Positions 322 through 25,382 of a stretch of 64,000 bases of DNA are shown in pieces; position 1 is the first letter of the stretch, and the number at the start of each line of letters is the position of its first letter. Source of the stretch: Atopobium massiliense (GTDB lineage: Bacteria > Actinomycetota > Coriobacteriia > Coriobacteriales > Atopobiaceae); NCBI GenBank assembly GCA_900343135.1, contig OPYK01000003.1, forward strand, positions 1-64,000, written 5' to 3'. Both the position numbers and the translations under genes were made by a program. The notes under the pieces are model-generated. The model was not told the origin of the DNA. It ran no database searches and was given only the letters and a program-made list of their open reading frames with translations.

Positions 322-3300
322 TTACTTAGCGGCGTACCACTTGATTTCCTCTTTGCGCCAACCATCTTTCACCATCTTGGCAATCTCGTCTGCGTCAGAC
401 GTGTAGTGGTGGTAGAACTTCTTTTCGTACGGGTTGTACATGCTTACCATGCCAACTGTCTGCTTATCGGCGTCCAGCACGCTAAAGAACTTCACACCTT
501 CGTTTTTCCAGCCTGCCTTAACGCATGCTGCCACCTCGTCTTCTTTGGTAGTGTAGTGGTGCTCGCCCGTGTTTGGATTGTACAGGCGGTACACGCCGCC
601 CTTTTCGCCATGCATGTACACTTTGCCAGTTATACCCTCAAAGTTCCAACCAAGGGAAACAAGGTTATCTTTTTCGGCAGCATCAGTCGTAAACAGGTGC
701 TCATGTGTGTAAGGATTATACAGGCGATACATCGCGTGCAGCGCGTAGAAATCATCATCCGACCTGCTAACGCTTATAAGGCTATCGGCCTTAAGCTCCG
801 TTTTAGTGCCGTCTTTGTAGGTAATGGTCGCGTTGCCGTTTTTGTCCACCGCAACGTTTGCCGCGGGCAACGAAATGTCAGCATTAGCCTTAACGATTGC
901 GTCTTTCAACTTGGCTTGCTGCTCTGCCGTAAGCTCAGAGGAGCTAACGGCAAGCTTTTCCTGCGGCGCTTTAATAGTCGTGTTAGCGCTTGTGTGCTCA
1001 ACAATGGTGTCGGTTGCGGATAGCTCCACTTTGTCCGTCTGCTTCGCGCCCCACGTTACCGTGGTTGTGCCTGCAGTTTTGTTCGAGGTAGCATCTGTTT
1101 TCTTTTCTACAACAACCTGATTGGCGGCTAATTTGCTGTTTGGATTAGCGGCAATCACGCCATCTTGCACAGCCTTTACCTCGGCATCTGTAAGGCTCGC
1201 CGCATCCCACACCTGGATTTTATCCTTGGGCCCTTTAATGGCGCCATTGAGTGCCGAAACAGCAGCGTTAAGCGCTTTAGTTGCGTTCGCAATTTCTTCC
1301 GCCGATGCACCGTCCTTTTGCAAAATTTTATTAGCCTCGGTCATAGCCTTGGTAAGCGCCCCTTGCTTGTCTTTGTTGGCCTCAATATACGCAGGAGTTT
1401 TTTTCTTTTTGTTTGCTGCCGCCAGCGCATCACGCAGCGCTGTTTTATCAACAGTATCGCCGCCAAGATCCTTAAGGGCATTCTTTAGTGCAGTAATCTT
1501 TTCTGTAACTTTAGTTGCATTGTCGTTGTCGCCAGCATCTTTGTTAAGCAAATCTTTGCCGTTTTTAAGCGCAGTCTCAAACGCAGTTTTCTTGGCTTGG
1601 TCAACACCCGACTTTCCGGTAAGTGCATTGTTTTCGTTTTGCTTGTCTGCAAGCTTAACAAGTTTATCCAAATCGCCCATAGCGCCATCGAGCGTGCTTA
1701 TTTCATTAGCAAGATCTTCCAGCAACTTATTTACTTTTTCGGGCGAATTTTTAGTGGTATCAGCCGGGTTAATAACCGCGTCATCAAGCTTGGCTTGCAG
1801 CGCCGCTTTTTGCTTGTTGTTGAGGTTCTTTGCATTATCGAGCAGCTGCTGGGCTTTCGTGCGCGCCGCCGCCGTTTCCGCATCGCTTACAATATCACTA
1901 ATTGCACGAGCACTCTTCGCCTCATTTATCTGTTTTTCGTAATCGGCAGCCTGGGTTTCCGTAAGCTTGCCGTCTTTTTTGAGCTGCTCAATCTTTGCCT
2001 TGCCATCGCGTTTAGCGTTTTCGAGCTCGGCTTTGTCATACTCTTTCCATACGTCTTCTACGCTTCCAGCGCCGTCAATGTTGCCGCTGTATGTATTGCG
2101 CTCAGCGTCTGTAAGTTTCGTAAGACCTTTGAGCTTCTCTTTTGCGGCGTTCATTGCATTTGTTAGGTCTTGTTTGTCCTGCGCGTCTTGTGCCGTTTTG
2201 TTGGCAGTATTCTTTTCTTTAGCCGAGTTAAGCGCATCTGTTACGCCGCTCTCATCGGCTGCATCATCAATCGCTTTTTGGGCGTTTGCTTTGTCTTCGG
2301 GCGATAGGTTATCAAGCGTGCCAAGTTCCTGTTTAGCAGCAGCTTTTTTCTTTTTGAGCTCGTCTTCTTTCTTTTGCTTTTCGGCATCCTTCTTATCGTC
2401 ACTATCGGTATTCGCTTCATTCGCAACGTTAGCATCTACCTTACCATCGTCAGCTTGTTGTTGCGTTGAAATCTCGTCCTTTTGTTTCTGATCTTCTGTT
2501 TTTTGTTCTTGTTCTTTCTTCTCGTCATCAGCTTTAGCGTGTTCTTGTTGCTTCTCAGCAATTTTCTTATCGATCTCGCCGGGGTCAGCGTTTTCGAGAT
2601 CCTTCTTAAATTTCTCTTTGTCATCACCGCTTAAGCCAAGGCTATCTGCAGCAGCGTCGATTTTCTTCTTCTTGTCCGCTTCTTTCTTCTTATTATTGGC
2701 GTGTTCATCAATCTTTTGCAAAAGTTTATCCACATCAGATTGGTTTTTAATACCCTCTTTATCCTTTTTGAAGTCAGGGTCGTTTTCTAGCTCTTTTTTA
2801 AGTTTATCGAGTTCATCGCCCGTAAAGCCTTTATCCTTAAGCGCTTTATCAAGTGCGTTATCAACTTCCTGTTTGGCTTTATCGGGTTCAAATGCACCGC
2901 CATCTTTGTAGAAAATGTCCGTGTTTTTAATCGTTAAAATTGAGCCTTTAGAACTACTAAAATCTACCGTATTGTTGGAGCAGTTTACTTTTTCAATTAC
3001 ATTATCGTTCCATGCACCTTTTAGCTTCAAACCATTCGTACCTGTTTTAGGTACCCAACTATCTTTTACATTACTAAATGGAATATCACTATTAGTAAAA
3101 TTATTGAACGATTGCGTATCGGCAGATGTCAGTTCAGAACCATCCTGTTTTTGGTAATTATCCTTAAGGAACTGATCGATAAACCTATTCCAGTCACTGC
3201 TCTGCGGAGCTTCAAAAGTTCCGTCTTTAACAGCTATAGGCGTTAAGAAGTATTTTATATTGCCTAAATTTTTCAAGCTCTTGGTTGGCGTTGTTGCATT

Positions 3301-5229
3301 TCCCACAGTATATACAAGGCGTCCACCTGGTATTACATGCTTGCTATTATCCTTATACGTAATGGTGGTCGTGCCATTTTCATCAACTTTAATAGCGTCC
3401 GCGCCCGCGGCAAGATCCTTTACAATATCCTGGTTCCTTTCTTTAATGAGTTTCACTAAGCCTTCTTTTTCTGTTGTTTCAAGCTTAGTTGCATCCTTTA
3501 CACCCATACGTGCTGGAATGGAAATCGTATGCGTATCTGCCATAGACGGCGCCTTCTTAACAAGCAAATCACGATTCATATGGTCTTTCGACTCAAAGCC
3601 TTGCTCGTCATCGCTATACGTAATAGTTACGGCACCATCCTTGCCAACAACAATGTTCTTCTTTTTGTCCTCGTCCGATGTACCTTTGAGTGCATCCATA
3701 AATTTTTTATTAGTTTTATTCGCATTAAAAACAGCGTCGCGTACCTTATTACGATTAGTTTCGTCGACATTGTCTATATCCGGCACCTCGGTAATAAACG
3801 GTGGATACCAAGGAGTAATGTCGTCTGCAAGCGGATGTTTCTTGCCAATAAGGAATTTTCCTTCAAGCACTTTGGTAGAATGCGGCTCATACTTATCCTT
3901 AAACGTAATGGTAGCATTACCATTTGCCTTATCTACCTCTACTTTTTCGATAAGATTTTTAGTAGCTTCGTCCTGGGCGGCTGTAATTTTTTTCTCAATT
4001 TCAGCTTTTTCGCTATCACTCAGTGCTGCTGGATTCTTTACCAGCGTGCGATCAGGATATTTGAGCTTGGTAATATCGCTTAATTTGGTGTAGCGGCGCG
4101 TAAGATTTGCCTTGTGAATAGTATCTTTAGAATCATCTGCATACGTAACTGTTGCGCTACCATCATCGTTAATCGTAACTGCAGCATTAAAGCCATTTTC
4201 GTCGGTTGGCTTGCCCTTAAGATGACTCAGCAAATCCTTATTGTCTTTATTCTTTTCCCACAAATCGTTTGTAATTTGCTTCTTTTCTTCAGCGCTCGGC
4301 TTTCCATACTCACCAATAACGCGCGGTTTGTCGGGATAAGCCAGCTCATCAGTATCGGCATAAGACGGCAGTGTTACCGGCAGCAAGGTTTTGCCCATTG
4401 TGTAATGCCAGTTGCCCATAACCTGATACACACCGGCTGCAAAGTATAACGGCGTGTTTTTGTCTTCAAGCTTAATGCGGAATTTAAATTGTGTTTTATG
4501 CTTGCCGCGTCTTTCCCAATTAATAAACAATCCTTGGCTTTGAGCTGCATATTCTTTTGATAAATCGAGAGTTTTGCCGTCGTTGTTATACGCATCCTGG
4601 CCAGTCATGCGAGTCCAGTTGTCATTAAACTGCTGTTTATGTGCTGCGTCGTTTGCAAAATAGAAGCGAGAAGGTTTTTCTCCCTTCCATTCCTCGAAAC
4701 TTGCTGTTTCCTGCTCCGGGGTGTCGTTACGAGAAAATTCAATATTGCCATCGATGGTTACACCTTTTGGCAAACTTCCCCACCAAAATGGGCGGCCTCC
4801 CCACCATTCACCATCCTGGTTAAAGGTGTACTCAACGGTGTAATACGAACCAAAACTAGCACGATCGGGGTTATTATCAATACCCTTACCGTCTTTATCA
4901 ACAGGCACAAAATTCATTGTTACGTACGACTCTGCATTTGTTGCTCGATCGCGGTTAGAGTAAATGTACGAATTGTCACCATGTTTAATACCCTCGGCAT
5001 ACGTTGCCTGCATAGTTGCAGCACCGCTACCATATGCAAGAATACCTACTAATGCTGCAGTTACAGCAACACGAGCAATCCGCACGCCCGATTTTTTGGA
5101 CTGTTTGTTCCATAAAAATGAATAACCATGCGACTCATGGACAAATGATGCCGTACGGTGGGCGGGTTGATCGTGCATAGTGCTGGTTGACGATGCTGTA
5201 TAGTTGAGAGAACTTTTGCTATGTTTCAT
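322..5229 (-). CDS. Large secreted surface protein with GA/FIVAR-like helical modules and C-terminal DUF5648-type repeats
   Basis: A 1635-residue exported protein of unknown role, probably an adhesin or host-protein binder. Residues about 48-80 form a basic-then-hydrophobic signal segment ending near TYAEG. Residues about 280-1000 contain repeated short modules with the pattern VxxxGxATITYxDxS, each preceded by a charged helix. Residues about 800-1330 are very Lys/Glu/Asp-rich. They include stretches resembling albumin-binding GA modules (LSPEDKANAQKAIDDA, LTDAERNTY) and FIVAR modules (ALNAAVSALNGA). The last 145 residues hold three aromatic repeats of the type YRLYNPNTGEHHYT, as in DUF5648. 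There is no LPXTG or C-terminal membrane anchor, so the DUF5648 part may attach it to the wall (inference). The start has an AGGAG site six bases upstream. The promoter contains a G9 tract, and a paralogue lies just upstream. Confidence 0.85.
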   Translation of the reverse strand: MKHSKSSLNYTASSTSTMHDQPAHRTASFVHESHGYSFLWNKQSKKSGVRIARVAVTAALVGILAYGSGAATMQATYAEGIKHGDNSYIYSNRDRATNAESYVTMNFVPVDKDGKGIDNNPDRASFGSYYTVEYTFNQDGEWWGGRPFWWGSLPKGVTIDGNIEFSRNDTPEQETASFEEWKGEKPSRFYFANDAAHKQQFNDNWTRMTGQDAYNNDGKTLDLSKEYAAQSQGLFINWERRGKHKTQFKFRIKLEDKNTPLYFAAGVYQVMGNWHYTMGKTLLPVTLPSYADTDELAYPDKPRVIGEYGKPSAEEKKQITNDLWEKNKDNKDLLSHLKGKPTDENGFNAAVTINDDGSATVTYADDSKDTIHKANLTRRYTKLSDITKLKYPDRTLVKNPAALSDSEKAEIEKKITAAQDEATKNLIEKVEVDKANGNATITFKDKYEPHSTKVLEGKFLIGKKHPLADDITPWYPPFITEVPDIDNVDETNRNKVRDAVFNANKTNKKFMDALKGTSDEDKKKNIVVGKDGAVTITYSDDEQGFESKDHMNRDLLVKKAPSMADTHTISIPARMGVKDATKLETTEKEGLVKLIKERNQDIVKDLAAGADAIKVDENGTTTITYKDNSKHVIPGGRLVYTVGNATTPTKSLKNLGNIKYFLTPIAVKDGTFEAPQSSDWNRFIDQFLKDNYQKQDGSELTSADTQSFNNFTNSDIPFSNVKDSWVPKTGTNGLKLKGAWNDNVIEKVNCSNNTVDFSSSKGSILTIKNTDIFYKDGGAFEPDKAKQEVDNALDKALKDKGFTGDELDKLKKELENDPDFKKDKEGIKNQSDVDKLLQKIDEHANNKKKEADKKKKIDAAADSLGLSGDDKEKFKKDLENADPGEIDKKIAEKQQEHAKADDEKKEQEQKTEDQKQKDEISTQQQADDGKVDANVANEANTDSDDKKDAEKQKKEDELKKKKAAAKQELGTLDNLSPEDKANAQKAIDDAADESGVTDALNSAKEKNTANKTAQDAQDKQDLTNAMNAAKEKLKGLTKLTDAERNTYSGNIDGAGSVEDVWKEYDKAELENAKRDGKAKIEQLKKDGKLTETQAADYEKQINEAKSARAISDIVSDAETAAARTKAQQLLDNAKNLNNKQKAALQAKLDDAVINPADTTKNSPEKVNKLLEDLANEISTLDGAMGDLDKLVKLADKQNENNALTGKSGVDQAKKTAFETALKNGKDLLNKDAGDNDNATKVTEKITALKNALKDLGGDTVDKTALRDALAAANKKKKTPAYIEANKDKQGALTKAMTEANKILQKDGASAEEIANATKALNAAVSALNGAIKGPKDKIQVWDAASLTDAEVKAVQDGVIAANPNSKLAANQVVVEKKTDATSNKTAGTTTVTWGAKQTDKVELSATDTIVEHTSANTTIKAPQEKLAVSSSELTAEQQAKLKDAIVKANADISLPAANVAVDKNGNATITYKDGTKTELKADSLISVSRSDDDFYALHAMYRLYNPYTHEHLFTTDAAEKDNLVSLGWNFEGITGKVYMHGEKGGVYRLYNPNTGEHHYTTKEDEVAACVKAGWKNEGVKFFSVLDADKQTVGMVSMYNPYEKKFYHHYTSDADEIAKMVKDGWRKEEIKWYAAK

Positions 5230-5284
5230 ATAAACTCCTAGCTCTCAATGATTAACGACCGGCAAAATATAAAAAGATATGTTT

Positions 5285-5313
5285 ATCTTAGAGCACCCCC
5301 CCCCGCTCGTCAA
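5285..5313 (-). promoter_or_regulatory. Promoter with a poly-G9 spacer, candidate phase switch
   Basis: On the minus strand a -35 box TTGACG (5308-5313) and a -10 box TAAGAT (5285-5290) are separated by exactly 17 bp. Nine of those spacer bases are an uninterrupted G run (plus-strand C at 5296-5304). The start codon of the 1635-residue surface protein is about 55 bases downstream. Slippage of the G tract would move the spacer away from 17 bp and change promoter strength, a known phase-variation mechanism in other bacteria. Confidence 0.65.
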
Positions 5314-5803: not shown

Positions 5804-7546
5804 TTACTTAGCGGCGTACCACTTGATTTCTTCTTTACGCCAGCCATCTTTCACCATCTTGGCAATCTCGTCTGCGTCAGACGTGTAGTGATGGTAGAAC
5901 TTCTTCTCATACGGATTGTACATACTTACCATGCCAACTGTCTGCTTATCGGCGTCAAGCACGCTAAAGAACTTAACACCCTCGTTTTTCCAGCCCGCCT
6001 TTACGCATGCTGCCACCTCGTCTTCTTTGTTAGTGTAGTGGTGCTCGCCCGTGTTTGGATTGTACAAGCGGTACACGCCACCTTTCTCACCATGCATGTA
6101 CACTTTGCCAGTTATACCCTCAAAGTTCCAACCAAGCGATACAAGGTTGTCCTTCTCGGCAGCGTCTGTTGTAAACAGGTGCTCGTGCGTGTAAGGATTG
6201 TACAAACGGTACATCGCGTGCAGCGCGTAGAAGTCATCTGTGCCACTTTCCACGTCATCCGGCTCATCATCCTGACACACGCCATTCAAGTCGCAAAATA
6301 ACCATTTGCCAATTAGTTTTGTATCCTCGGTAATTTGGGCTGAATTTAACAAATACTTTTTTCCACCGTCTTTTTTCCAACCGCGGAATTCCCATGTGCC
6401 AAGTTTTTCTCCCGTGTCATCTTCTATTGCATCAAACACTGTTTCTTTCCAACCGTGCGGTTGAATGAGGTCATACAGCTCCCCATAGTTCGTTTTAGGA
6501 TTCAGCACATACAAAGTACTAAAATCATTCATGAAATCGTCGAGCGGATATGGTAAATATGGCTTTGCTTTGGTTGCGCTTGCAAACTTATACTGCACCT
6601 CAAGCGGTACGGTCACATCAACGCTCGTGGTAGCTTTATCAAACGTAAATGAATGCGTTTTATACACGGTGTTAGGATTCGAATTATTTACAATCTTATA
6701 CGTCAGTGTGCCCTCAACCTGCACATGTGCGCTATACGCTTTGCCGTGCACTGCATCCTTAGTATACCAATAGGGCATGCTCGTAAGTGCAAATGGCGTT
6801 TCTGCTGCGTACTTAATACGTTCCGCAAAAGTAGCGTATGGCATAGATGTTAACACATACCGAGGATACCAATTCGTCGGGGGTCTTAGCGAAATGGTGG
6901 TAGTCAAGGTGTTCTTCGCTACATCTTCGGTTTCGCTTTGTACTTCAAAGAAACCTTTTGGGTCTTGATACTTGGGAAAGTCAGATCCCTCATGTAAAAA
7001 ATAACTCGTGTTATTAATAAATTTATCACCTTGAGCACCACTCGAGCATTGTTCGCTGAAGCCAAGCACACTCGGCGCATCATTGTTAGTAGATGTTTTT
7101 GGCAGCGTATACGTTACGGTAAGCGCAAGTGTGGGGTTTTGTATGGAGATATCGTTATCAGTAAGACCATTCTCTTTTTTTATTTGCGCAATCTCATCTG
7201 CAAGTGTCGTATTATTAGGCGATTAAATTTTATTTAACCCGCTTAGCTGCAACGTAGTAGTAAATTCTGCAGCTGGATAATCGCGATGGGTTGATAAATA
7301 GTTGTCATAAAGTACATTTTTAGAAACTGCAGATACGATTGGTTTATCTAACGTAATAAATTGATTATTATTTTGAGTGAGGGGGGGGGTAATTGCATTT
7401 GCCATGGTAGATGCCGCCAGCGCGGGCGTTTGCAGCGCAAACGTACACAAACCTGCGATTAGCGTTGAGACAAAACCTGTATAAGCTGCACGCGCAGCAA
7501 AGGCGCAAGCACGTGTTTTATGATAATAACGTTGTGAATAATGCAT
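5804..7546 (-). pseudogene. Paralogous secreted DUF5648-type surface protein, interrupted by an in-frame TAA and carrying a poly-C9 tract
   Basis: One reading frame of 581 codons begins with ATG at 7546 (GTGAGG ribosome site). A signal peptide (hydrophobic core about residues 24-40, AALAA-type end) is followed directly by a C9 run at codons 53-56 (7381-7389 as G on plus). The frame meets TAA at 7223-7225 (codon 108) and then continues without shift: SPNNTTLADEIAQIKKENG and on through a GTG codon at 7069 to the end. Its last 144 residues match the larger neighbour's C-terminus with one internal substitution. A promoter with a perfect -10 lies upstream. Either the gene is broken by a nonsense change, or the tail is made by re-initiation or readthrough. 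A sequencing error is also possible. Confidence 0.7.
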
Positions 7547-23713: not shown

Positions 23714-25382
23714 GTTCAATCTTTTAGAAGAGCCGTGGATTTCGGTAATTGTAGACGATTTGGGTCATACAAAATTGGTCTCAATGATGGATGTCTTTCA
23801 ATCCGCGCATGAGTATAAAGCTCTTGCAGGCGATATGAAAGCGCAAGATTTTTCCATTTTGCGCTTACTGCTTGCAGTGCTCCACACGGTGTTTTCTCGC
23901 TACGATACTAAGGGTCATGCTCGCACGTTTGATCCAGATGAAGATGAAGCAGAAGATTTTGATGAAGAGAGCATCGAAATATGGAAAGAAGTATGGAAAG
24001 CGCGCCGTTTTCCAAATATCGTATGTGATTATCTGAATCGTTGGCATAACAGGTTTTATCTTTTTGATGACGAGTACCCGTTTATGCAGGTGCTAGCAGA
24101 AGATATTAGTAGCGATAAACTCGGAGGAAAGAAGCCCAGCACAATTTCAGGGAAAAACATTAACCGTTTGATCTCAGAAAGCAATAATAAGATTGCATTG
24201 TTTTCTCCAAAAAATGGAGACGAGCAAGATAAAAATCGCTTAAGCTGCGCTGAGCTTGCACGATGGCTTGTTACACTGCAAGGCTATGTGGGGCTTTCTG
24301 ATAAAACACTTTTTGGTACACAAAAATATAAAGCCTCTAAAGGTTGGCTTTTTGACTTAGGCGGTATTACACTTGCGGGATCCAATCTGTTTGAAACACT
24401 TACGCTAAACTGGGTGGCTGCAAATCCATATCAATCAGCAGCAAGTAACCAAAAACCATGTTGGGAATATTCAGGTGCCGAAAACATACAGCATACTTTT
24501 TCAAGTGCGCGAGTTGACAATATAGCGCAGCTATATACGCGATGGAGCCGTGCAGTGTCTATCCCCTCAAGAAAGGATGAAAACGAACCGTTTATTCCTT
24601 CTATGGTTAAGCTTCCCGACCTCGATCACAAAAATGCGTTTATAGAACCAATGACCTTGTGGCATTATAATAAAACTGGAGACAATAAAGACGCATTTAC
24701 TCCCAGAAAACACCGCACCGAAGAAGCAATGTGGCGCTCCTATAGCTTACTTACCTTAACACACTCTCTTGATGATAGAGAAAAATATCATAAGCCAGAG
24801 GTAATAAGCTGGCTAGACTGCATTAGTCCATGTATAGAAAATTCACGCATTGTACTAGAAGCTATTAGCGTTAAGGATGATGGCAATGCAACATCGTGGG
24901 TCCCCACTGACGAGATATATGATAATTTATACGTTCACGAAGAATTGATAACAGACGTAGGCAATGATGGATGGGTGTATCGTGTAAACAATGAGGTAAA
25001 CCATACAAAAACTGCTGTTAGCTCAACGTATAGGGGCTTCCTTAAAGACATGTGCGACATACAAAATCGGAGCGACGATAATGCCACTACATTTATAAAT
25101 AGAACAATCAGCCATGTTTACTTTTTGCTCGATCGCCCATTTAGAGATTGGCTCGCAGGGATTAATCCAAGCGATTCAAAAAACGAATGCTGCGATAGGT
25201 GGAGAACAACCGTTAGGCAACTACTAGAAAAAGAAGCAAGCCAGATGGTTGCTAACGCCAATACAAGAGATTTAAATGGTATTACCGTAACAGAAAAAAC
25301 AAGCGGAGCTGCTACAACAAAAAATATTATTACAGCTTACAACGCTTTTATATATCGACTTAACAAACTGTCAGAACAGTAA
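23706..25382 (+). CDS. cse1: Cascade large subunit Cse1/CasA (Cas8e)
   Basis: The PAM-recognising large subunit of type I-E Cascade. The 558-residue protein opens with FNLLEEPWISVI, the hallmark N-terminus of Cse1, and then LRLLLAVLHTVF. It overlaps the end of cas3 and has AAAGGAG upstream. A central PWEYSG-like segment (KPCWEYSGAEN) and long helical C-terminus fit the family. The length is slightly above E. coli CasA (about 500). Confidence 0.92.
   Translation: MHEFNLLEEPWISVIVDDLGHTKLVSMMDVFQSAHEYKALAGDMKAQDFSILRLLLAVLHTVFSRYDTKGHARTFDPDEDEAEDFDEESIEIWKEVWKARRFPNIVCDYLNRWHNRFYLFDDEYPFMQVLAEDISSDKLGGKKPSTISGKNINRLISESNNKIALFSPKNGDEQDKNRLSCAELARWLVTLQGYVGLSDKTLFGTQKYKASKGWLFDLGGITLAGSNLFETLTLNWVAANPYQSAASNQKPCWEYSGAENIQHTFSSARVDNIAQLYTRWSRAVSIPSRKDENEPFIPSMVKLPDLDHKNAFIEPMTLWHYNKTGDNKDAFTPRKHRTEEAMWRSYSLLTLTHSLDDREKYHKPEVISWLDCISPCIENSRIVLEAISVKDDGNATSWVPTDEIYDNLYVHEELITDVGNDGWVYRVNNEVNHTKTAVSSTYRGFLKDMCDIQNRSDDNATTFINRTISHVYFLLDRPFRDWLAGINPSDSKNECCDRWRTTVRQLLEKEASQMVANANTRDLNGITVTEKTSGAATTKNIITAYNAFIYRLNKLSEQ

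Follow-up and report, generated by a model that had tools for sequence, protein, structure and literature searches.

In Atopobium massiliense, a run of nine G residues lies wholly inside the -35/-10 interval of a candidate promoter for a large secreted protein, and the genome holds further runs of this kind at the starts of other surface genes. Judging from the sequence, the surface-protein repertoire of this bacterium probably undergoes slipped-strand phase variation, with the promoter described here at its optimal spacing. A sequence-only reading of the same DNA had proposed that this promoter is phase-variable, a proposal that is now supported by two sister promoters with G9 or G10 tracts, by twelve tracts at surface genes and by a recurrence among relatives far above that of a reversed control.

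In the window, i.e. the whole stretch of 64,000 nt that was analysed, the plus strand at 5285-5313, read directly from the sequence, is ATCTTAGAGCACCCCCCCCCGCTCGTCAA. On the minus strand, from 5313 to 5285, it reads TTGACG-AGCGGGGGGGGGTGCTC-TAAGAT, with a spacer of exactly 17 nt that is composed of AGC-GGGGGGGGG-TGCTC, i.e. AGC-G9-TGCTC. The -35 hexamer, the 17-bp spacer made mostly of G9 and the -10 hexamer are thus exactly as the earlier reading had given them, and their placement upstream of a 1635-residue secreted protein likewise holds, with 55 nt between the TAAGAT element and the ATG at 5229. The features of the locus are as follows:

5308-5313, minus strand: -35 hexamer TTGACG (sequence and consensus scan)
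5291-5307, minus strand: promoter spacer AGC-G9-TGCTC, 17 nt (sequence)
5296-5304, minus strand: G9 homopolymer, presumed slippage tract (sequence)
5291-5295, minus strand: TGCTC immediately 5' of the -10 hexamer (recurrence of GCTC in the poly-G promoters of the order)
5285-5290, minus strand: -10 hexamer TAAGAT (sequence and consensus scan)
5235-5239, minus strand: ribosome-binding site AGGAG, 5 nt ahead of the ATG (sequence)
322-5229, minus strand: gene for the secreted surface protein of 1635 aa (open reading frame and domain matches)
5804-7546, minus strand: neighbouring DUF5648 surface gene (reading frame open except for one in-frame stop)
7381-7389, plus strand: second G9 tract (nine C on the coding strand), beyond the signal-peptide region of the adjacent DUF5648 gene

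Loci are named below after the contigs of this genome; the window lies on contig C9, and the promoter tract is C9a. As a promoter match, C9a scores 9/12 in the consensus scan. Sites of this type are no commoner here than in shuffled sequence, and when only the flanks of the tract are shuffled the site alone is modestly better than chance (P = 0.029); we therefore rejected the match as significant by itself. Such a score would also fit hexamers that are coincidental, in which case the tract would be part of a leader or upstream region, and any effect it had would pass through RNA or an upstream regulator; three further tracts (C14, C11a and C10b) precede surface genes but have no clear promoter across them. 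However, two sister promoters elsewhere in this genome score 10/12, a value equalled in at most 0.1% of flank shuffles: C8b, with TTGAAA-AATGCTGC-G9-T-TATACT, and C10a, with TTGAAA-AATCCTCC-G10-TATACT, both with a spacer of 18 nt. Overall, 3 of 26 tract strands show a promoter of at least 9/12 across the tract at a spacing of 16-18 nt, compared with 1.3% expected for each (binomial P 0.005; A2 and T6 were required in the -10 hexamer). The G residues are on the promoter strand in all three cases, and both this orientation and the 55-nt distance to the ATG agree with the other cases, again arguing against coincidence.

The tract is anomalous in its length. In the single genome of the species used for the census (a draft assembly of 1,548,103 bases in 16 contigs), exact G/C runs of 7, 8, 9 and 10 occur 1, 1, 11 and 1 times, respectively, compared with 24.5, 4.7, 0.91 and 0.17 expected under a first-order model fitted to the window. 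There is thus a marked deficit of 7-runs and a marked excess of 9-runs, and the tract is not due to chance. The window alone contains two runs of 9 and none of 6, 7 or 8. All 12 runs of at least 9 are located at the 5' ends of genes whose products are large and either secreted or anchored in the wall; the lone run of 8 is close to a gene for a D-Ala-D-Ala carboxypeptidase. Six of the 12 fall into early coding sequence, three into promoter spacers and three into leader or upstream regions:

C4: early coding sequence; peptidase C69 and DUF5648
C7: early coding sequence; protein ends with an LPQTSD-type anchor
C8a: early coding sequence; GA module
C9b: early coding sequence; second gene of the window, DUF5648
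C10c: early coding sequence; aRib/GA/FIVAR/DUF5648 protein of 1823 aa
C11b: early coding sequence; FIVAR, LAQTSD
C9a: promoter spacer; 1635-aa protein, DUF5648
C8b: promoter spacer; DUF5648 protein
C10a: promoter spacer; DUF5648 protein
C10b: upstream or in the leader; LPKTGD protein
C14: upstream or in the leader; LAKTGD protein
C11a: upstream of the C11b gene

A spacer promoter was rejected for C14, C11a and C10b, whose tracts no good pair of hexamers spans. A TTGCCG-17-GATAAT site precedes the C10b G9 (contig C10, 7695-7703) by about 7 nt, and the tract may accordingly lie at the transcription start expected for the LPKTGD gene, a position unlike that of the spacer type. On contig C11, a single FIVAR surface gene, coding for about 2,300 residues, has two G9 tracts (at 24386 and 24975), one ahead of the coding sequence and the other within it, an arrangement that would allow double control.

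At all six coding tracts, the frame is open only at length 9 among lengths 7-11, and the other lengths lead to a stop after 9-163 residues, so that a change by one or two bases in either direction truncates the protein in every case. In the second gene of the window, for instance, the tract at 7381-7389 is in frame now, and any such change brings a stop at codon 58-66. Several tracts are hence placed for a predicted switching of surface genes, either by frame or by promoter. The in-frame state of all coding tracts at length 9 would be equally expected from stable Gly/Pro codons, a point that speaks against slippage. Along the same lines, the G9 in the promoter could be fixed, as a static part of the spacer or a site for protein binding whose length matters only over evolution, as in lineage promoter tuning. 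The identical length of eleven tracts would fit this explanation, but six coding sequences contain the same tract, and a binding site there would be meaningless; moreover, a fixed element does not need a pure homopolymer, and the near absence of 7-runs implies that long pure runs are not neutral. We therefore regard a fixed element as unlikely. An origin of the tracts as assembly or sequencing artefacts has to be weighed as well, because homopolymer lengths are error-prone and the assembly is a draft. Yet length errors would not confine runs to surface genes, deplete 7-runs or keep six frames open, which makes such artefacts extremely improbable.

Poly-G spacer promoters recur well beyond this genome. 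The pattern TTGA-N-G8-N-TAnnnT is found at about 24 distinct sites in 140 genomes of the family, as against 2 for the reversed pattern, and TTGAC-N-G8-N-TAnnnT at 39 distinct sites in 397 genomes of the order, as against 3; the null in both cases is the reversed-pattern control, among the matches listed, and the counts are not independent, since relatives share descent. Spacers of 15-19 nt are seen in 31 of the 39 order-wide sites, compared with 42% expected from the geometry of the pattern. This recurrence, added to the sister promoters, renders coincidental hexamers at C9a quite improbable. An open reading frame with a signal-peptide-like start lies just downstream of 24 of the 43 sites examined, compared with 4 of 47 reading frames of the window (Fisher P 1e-6), as called by a crude hydropathy rule. 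This rule undercounts, given that C9a itself fails it, with a hydrophobic stretch that begins beyond residue 45. G9 tracts sampled without selection from other family genomes are mixed, some being at the starts of secreted proteins and many not, which indicates that long G runs alone are not diagnostic in all members.

In two other genera of the order, surface proteins that share the signal-peptide motif ARLA..GLG.AL..GAAP are encoded downstream of poly-G spacer promoters, at several places in one genus and at two in the other. These related-looking promoters have spacers that span 15-20 nt, a spread that would not be expected of a fixed element. GCTC stands directly or one base before the -10 hexamer in 8 of 47 poly-G promoter sites, C9a included, where about 0.4 were expected; as related sites are not independent, a P-value for this excess is too optimistic. 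The sites with GCTC come from three families, and the first base past the G run is a T in 35 of the 47 sites. The GCTC thus hints at a common promoter type or a conserved promoter element. We see an even chance that there is a promoter class of the Coriobacteriales, spread over at least three families, with TTGAC[A/G], G8-G11 and often GCTC before the -10 hexamer, whose poly-G spacer is built-in and conserved and which, together with loss of mismatch repair, leads to stochastic switching of much of the surface proteome.

The anatomy of C9a closely follows that of known phase-variable promoters. The homopolymer lies wholly inside the -35/-10 interval, the spacer is near the 17-nt optimum (17 nt at C9a and 18 nt at both sister promoters), and a tract of a length beyond chance stands before a surface gene, all as in promoters of the porA / tp0126 type. 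In Treponema pallidum tp0126, poly-G lies between the -35 and -10 elements and transcription is best at 17 nt; for tprL of the same species, most amplicons hold 9 G's (PMC7864442). Both have poly-G in the promoter of a surface gene, and the tp0126 tract occupies the spacer like that of C9a, although this organism is a spirochaete, in which tract variation was measured in vivo. The porA promoter of Neisseria meningitidis similarly has a poly-G spacer, for which 17 nt is optimal (PMC7864442; van der Ende 1995, cited by PMC5084427), and shares with C9a the spacing and a downstream surface protein. However, it belongs to an unrelated gene of a Gram-negative bacterium, and its variation and expression have been demonstrated, whereas C9a is known as a sequence. 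Among the Actinomycetota, Cutibacterium acnes has G/C tracts at surface genes, including dermatan-sulphate adhesin genes, and its HPT_37 tract lies between the -10 and -35 elements, alters the promoter spacing and tracks an expression difference (PMC4746626). In contrast to C9a, HPT_37 comprises only 5-7 C, and the C. acnes tract lengths track phylogenetic clades, suggesting a slow change that would suit a fixed element (PMC4746626). Gardnerella, also a member of the Actinomycetota, although of another class, has G/C tracts of at least 8 that are mostly near gene starts, vary between colonies (9 or 10) and in several cases lie at surface genes; the accessible part of that report describes no class of poly-G spacer promoters (PMC11287997).

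Based on these precedents, the spacer tract is probably a contingency locus, at which slipped-strand mispairing at replication would add or remove G residues and thereby change the distance between the -35 and -10 hexamers. The optimum at C9a is predicted to be 17 nt because it is so in tp0126 and porA. If C9a is a promoter in use and its strength is set by spacing, G9, with its optimal 17 nt, would have the gene well transcribed, G8 or G10 (16 or 18 nt) would lower expression, and further steps would silence it. The 'on' state suggested by the earlier reading is accordingly a reasonable inference only. Switching of a large cell-surface protein in this manner would produce, within one clone, a mixture of cells with and without the protein. 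The six tracts in early codons would act by frameshift, and about a dozen poly-G switches together would generate combinatorial surface variation.

A candidate factor that would favour such slippage is the lack of mismatch repair. Neither MutS (PF00488, MutS_V) nor NucS (PF01939, NucS_C) was found in this genome, while the control genomes were positive as expected; at an assembly completeness of 95.5%, their absence is likely, not certain. Slips should then stay uncorrected, which again weighs against a tract of fixed length. To our knowledge, Campylobacter jejuni and Helicobacter pylori also are without mismatch repair of the MutS/MutL type, and poly-G contingency loci are abundant in both.

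The mechanism itself is already known from porA and tp0126, but its genome- and order-wide occurrence in coriobacteria, which are common gut, oral and vaginal bacteria, appears to be undescribed. What is new is the near all-or-none set of tracts at surface genes together with the order-wide class of poly-G spacer promoters. The earlier reading knew of no description in coriobacteria, and our searches for literature that joins phase variation, homopolymers and coriobacteria, or slipped-strand and Collinsella, found none either, which is weak evidence, as most subscription papers were outside the search. Should poly-G slips switch the coat proteins, a strain would comprise a mixture of surface types, with consequences for colonisation, immune recognition, phage attack and the comparison of strains, and a mainly commensal order would join the handful of bacteria with genome-wide contingency loci. 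For one coriobacterium, Eggerthella lenta, phase variation has been described to proceed through DNA inversions (PMC13174815).

The 1635-aa protein combines a signal-peptide-like N-terminus with six aRib domains, GA, FIVAR and a C-terminal DUF5648 domain. Orthologous promoter DNA of C9a was found in none of 60 relatives, and the viral contigs contained no copy of the locus. Full-length relatives of the protein were absent from the named genomes, in which a search for the DUF5648 domain returned only one Allobaculum locus. Among 140 family genomes, the first 290 aa matched only the paralogue C10c of the same genome, which shares 27-29% identity with the N-terminus of the 1635-aa protein. C10c carries its G9 within the signal-peptide codons and not in the promoter, as C9a does, suggesting independent origins of the tract in these paralogues. 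The DUF5648 domain has 21 matches in the 1.55-Mb genome, several of them at contig ends; this set is a large surface-protein family with the C-terminal domain in common, of which only some members have a poly-G tract. One member, the neighbouring gene at 5804-7546, contains a single in-frame stop (7223-7225, after codon 107), apparently through recent inactivation of the gene or an error in sequencing.
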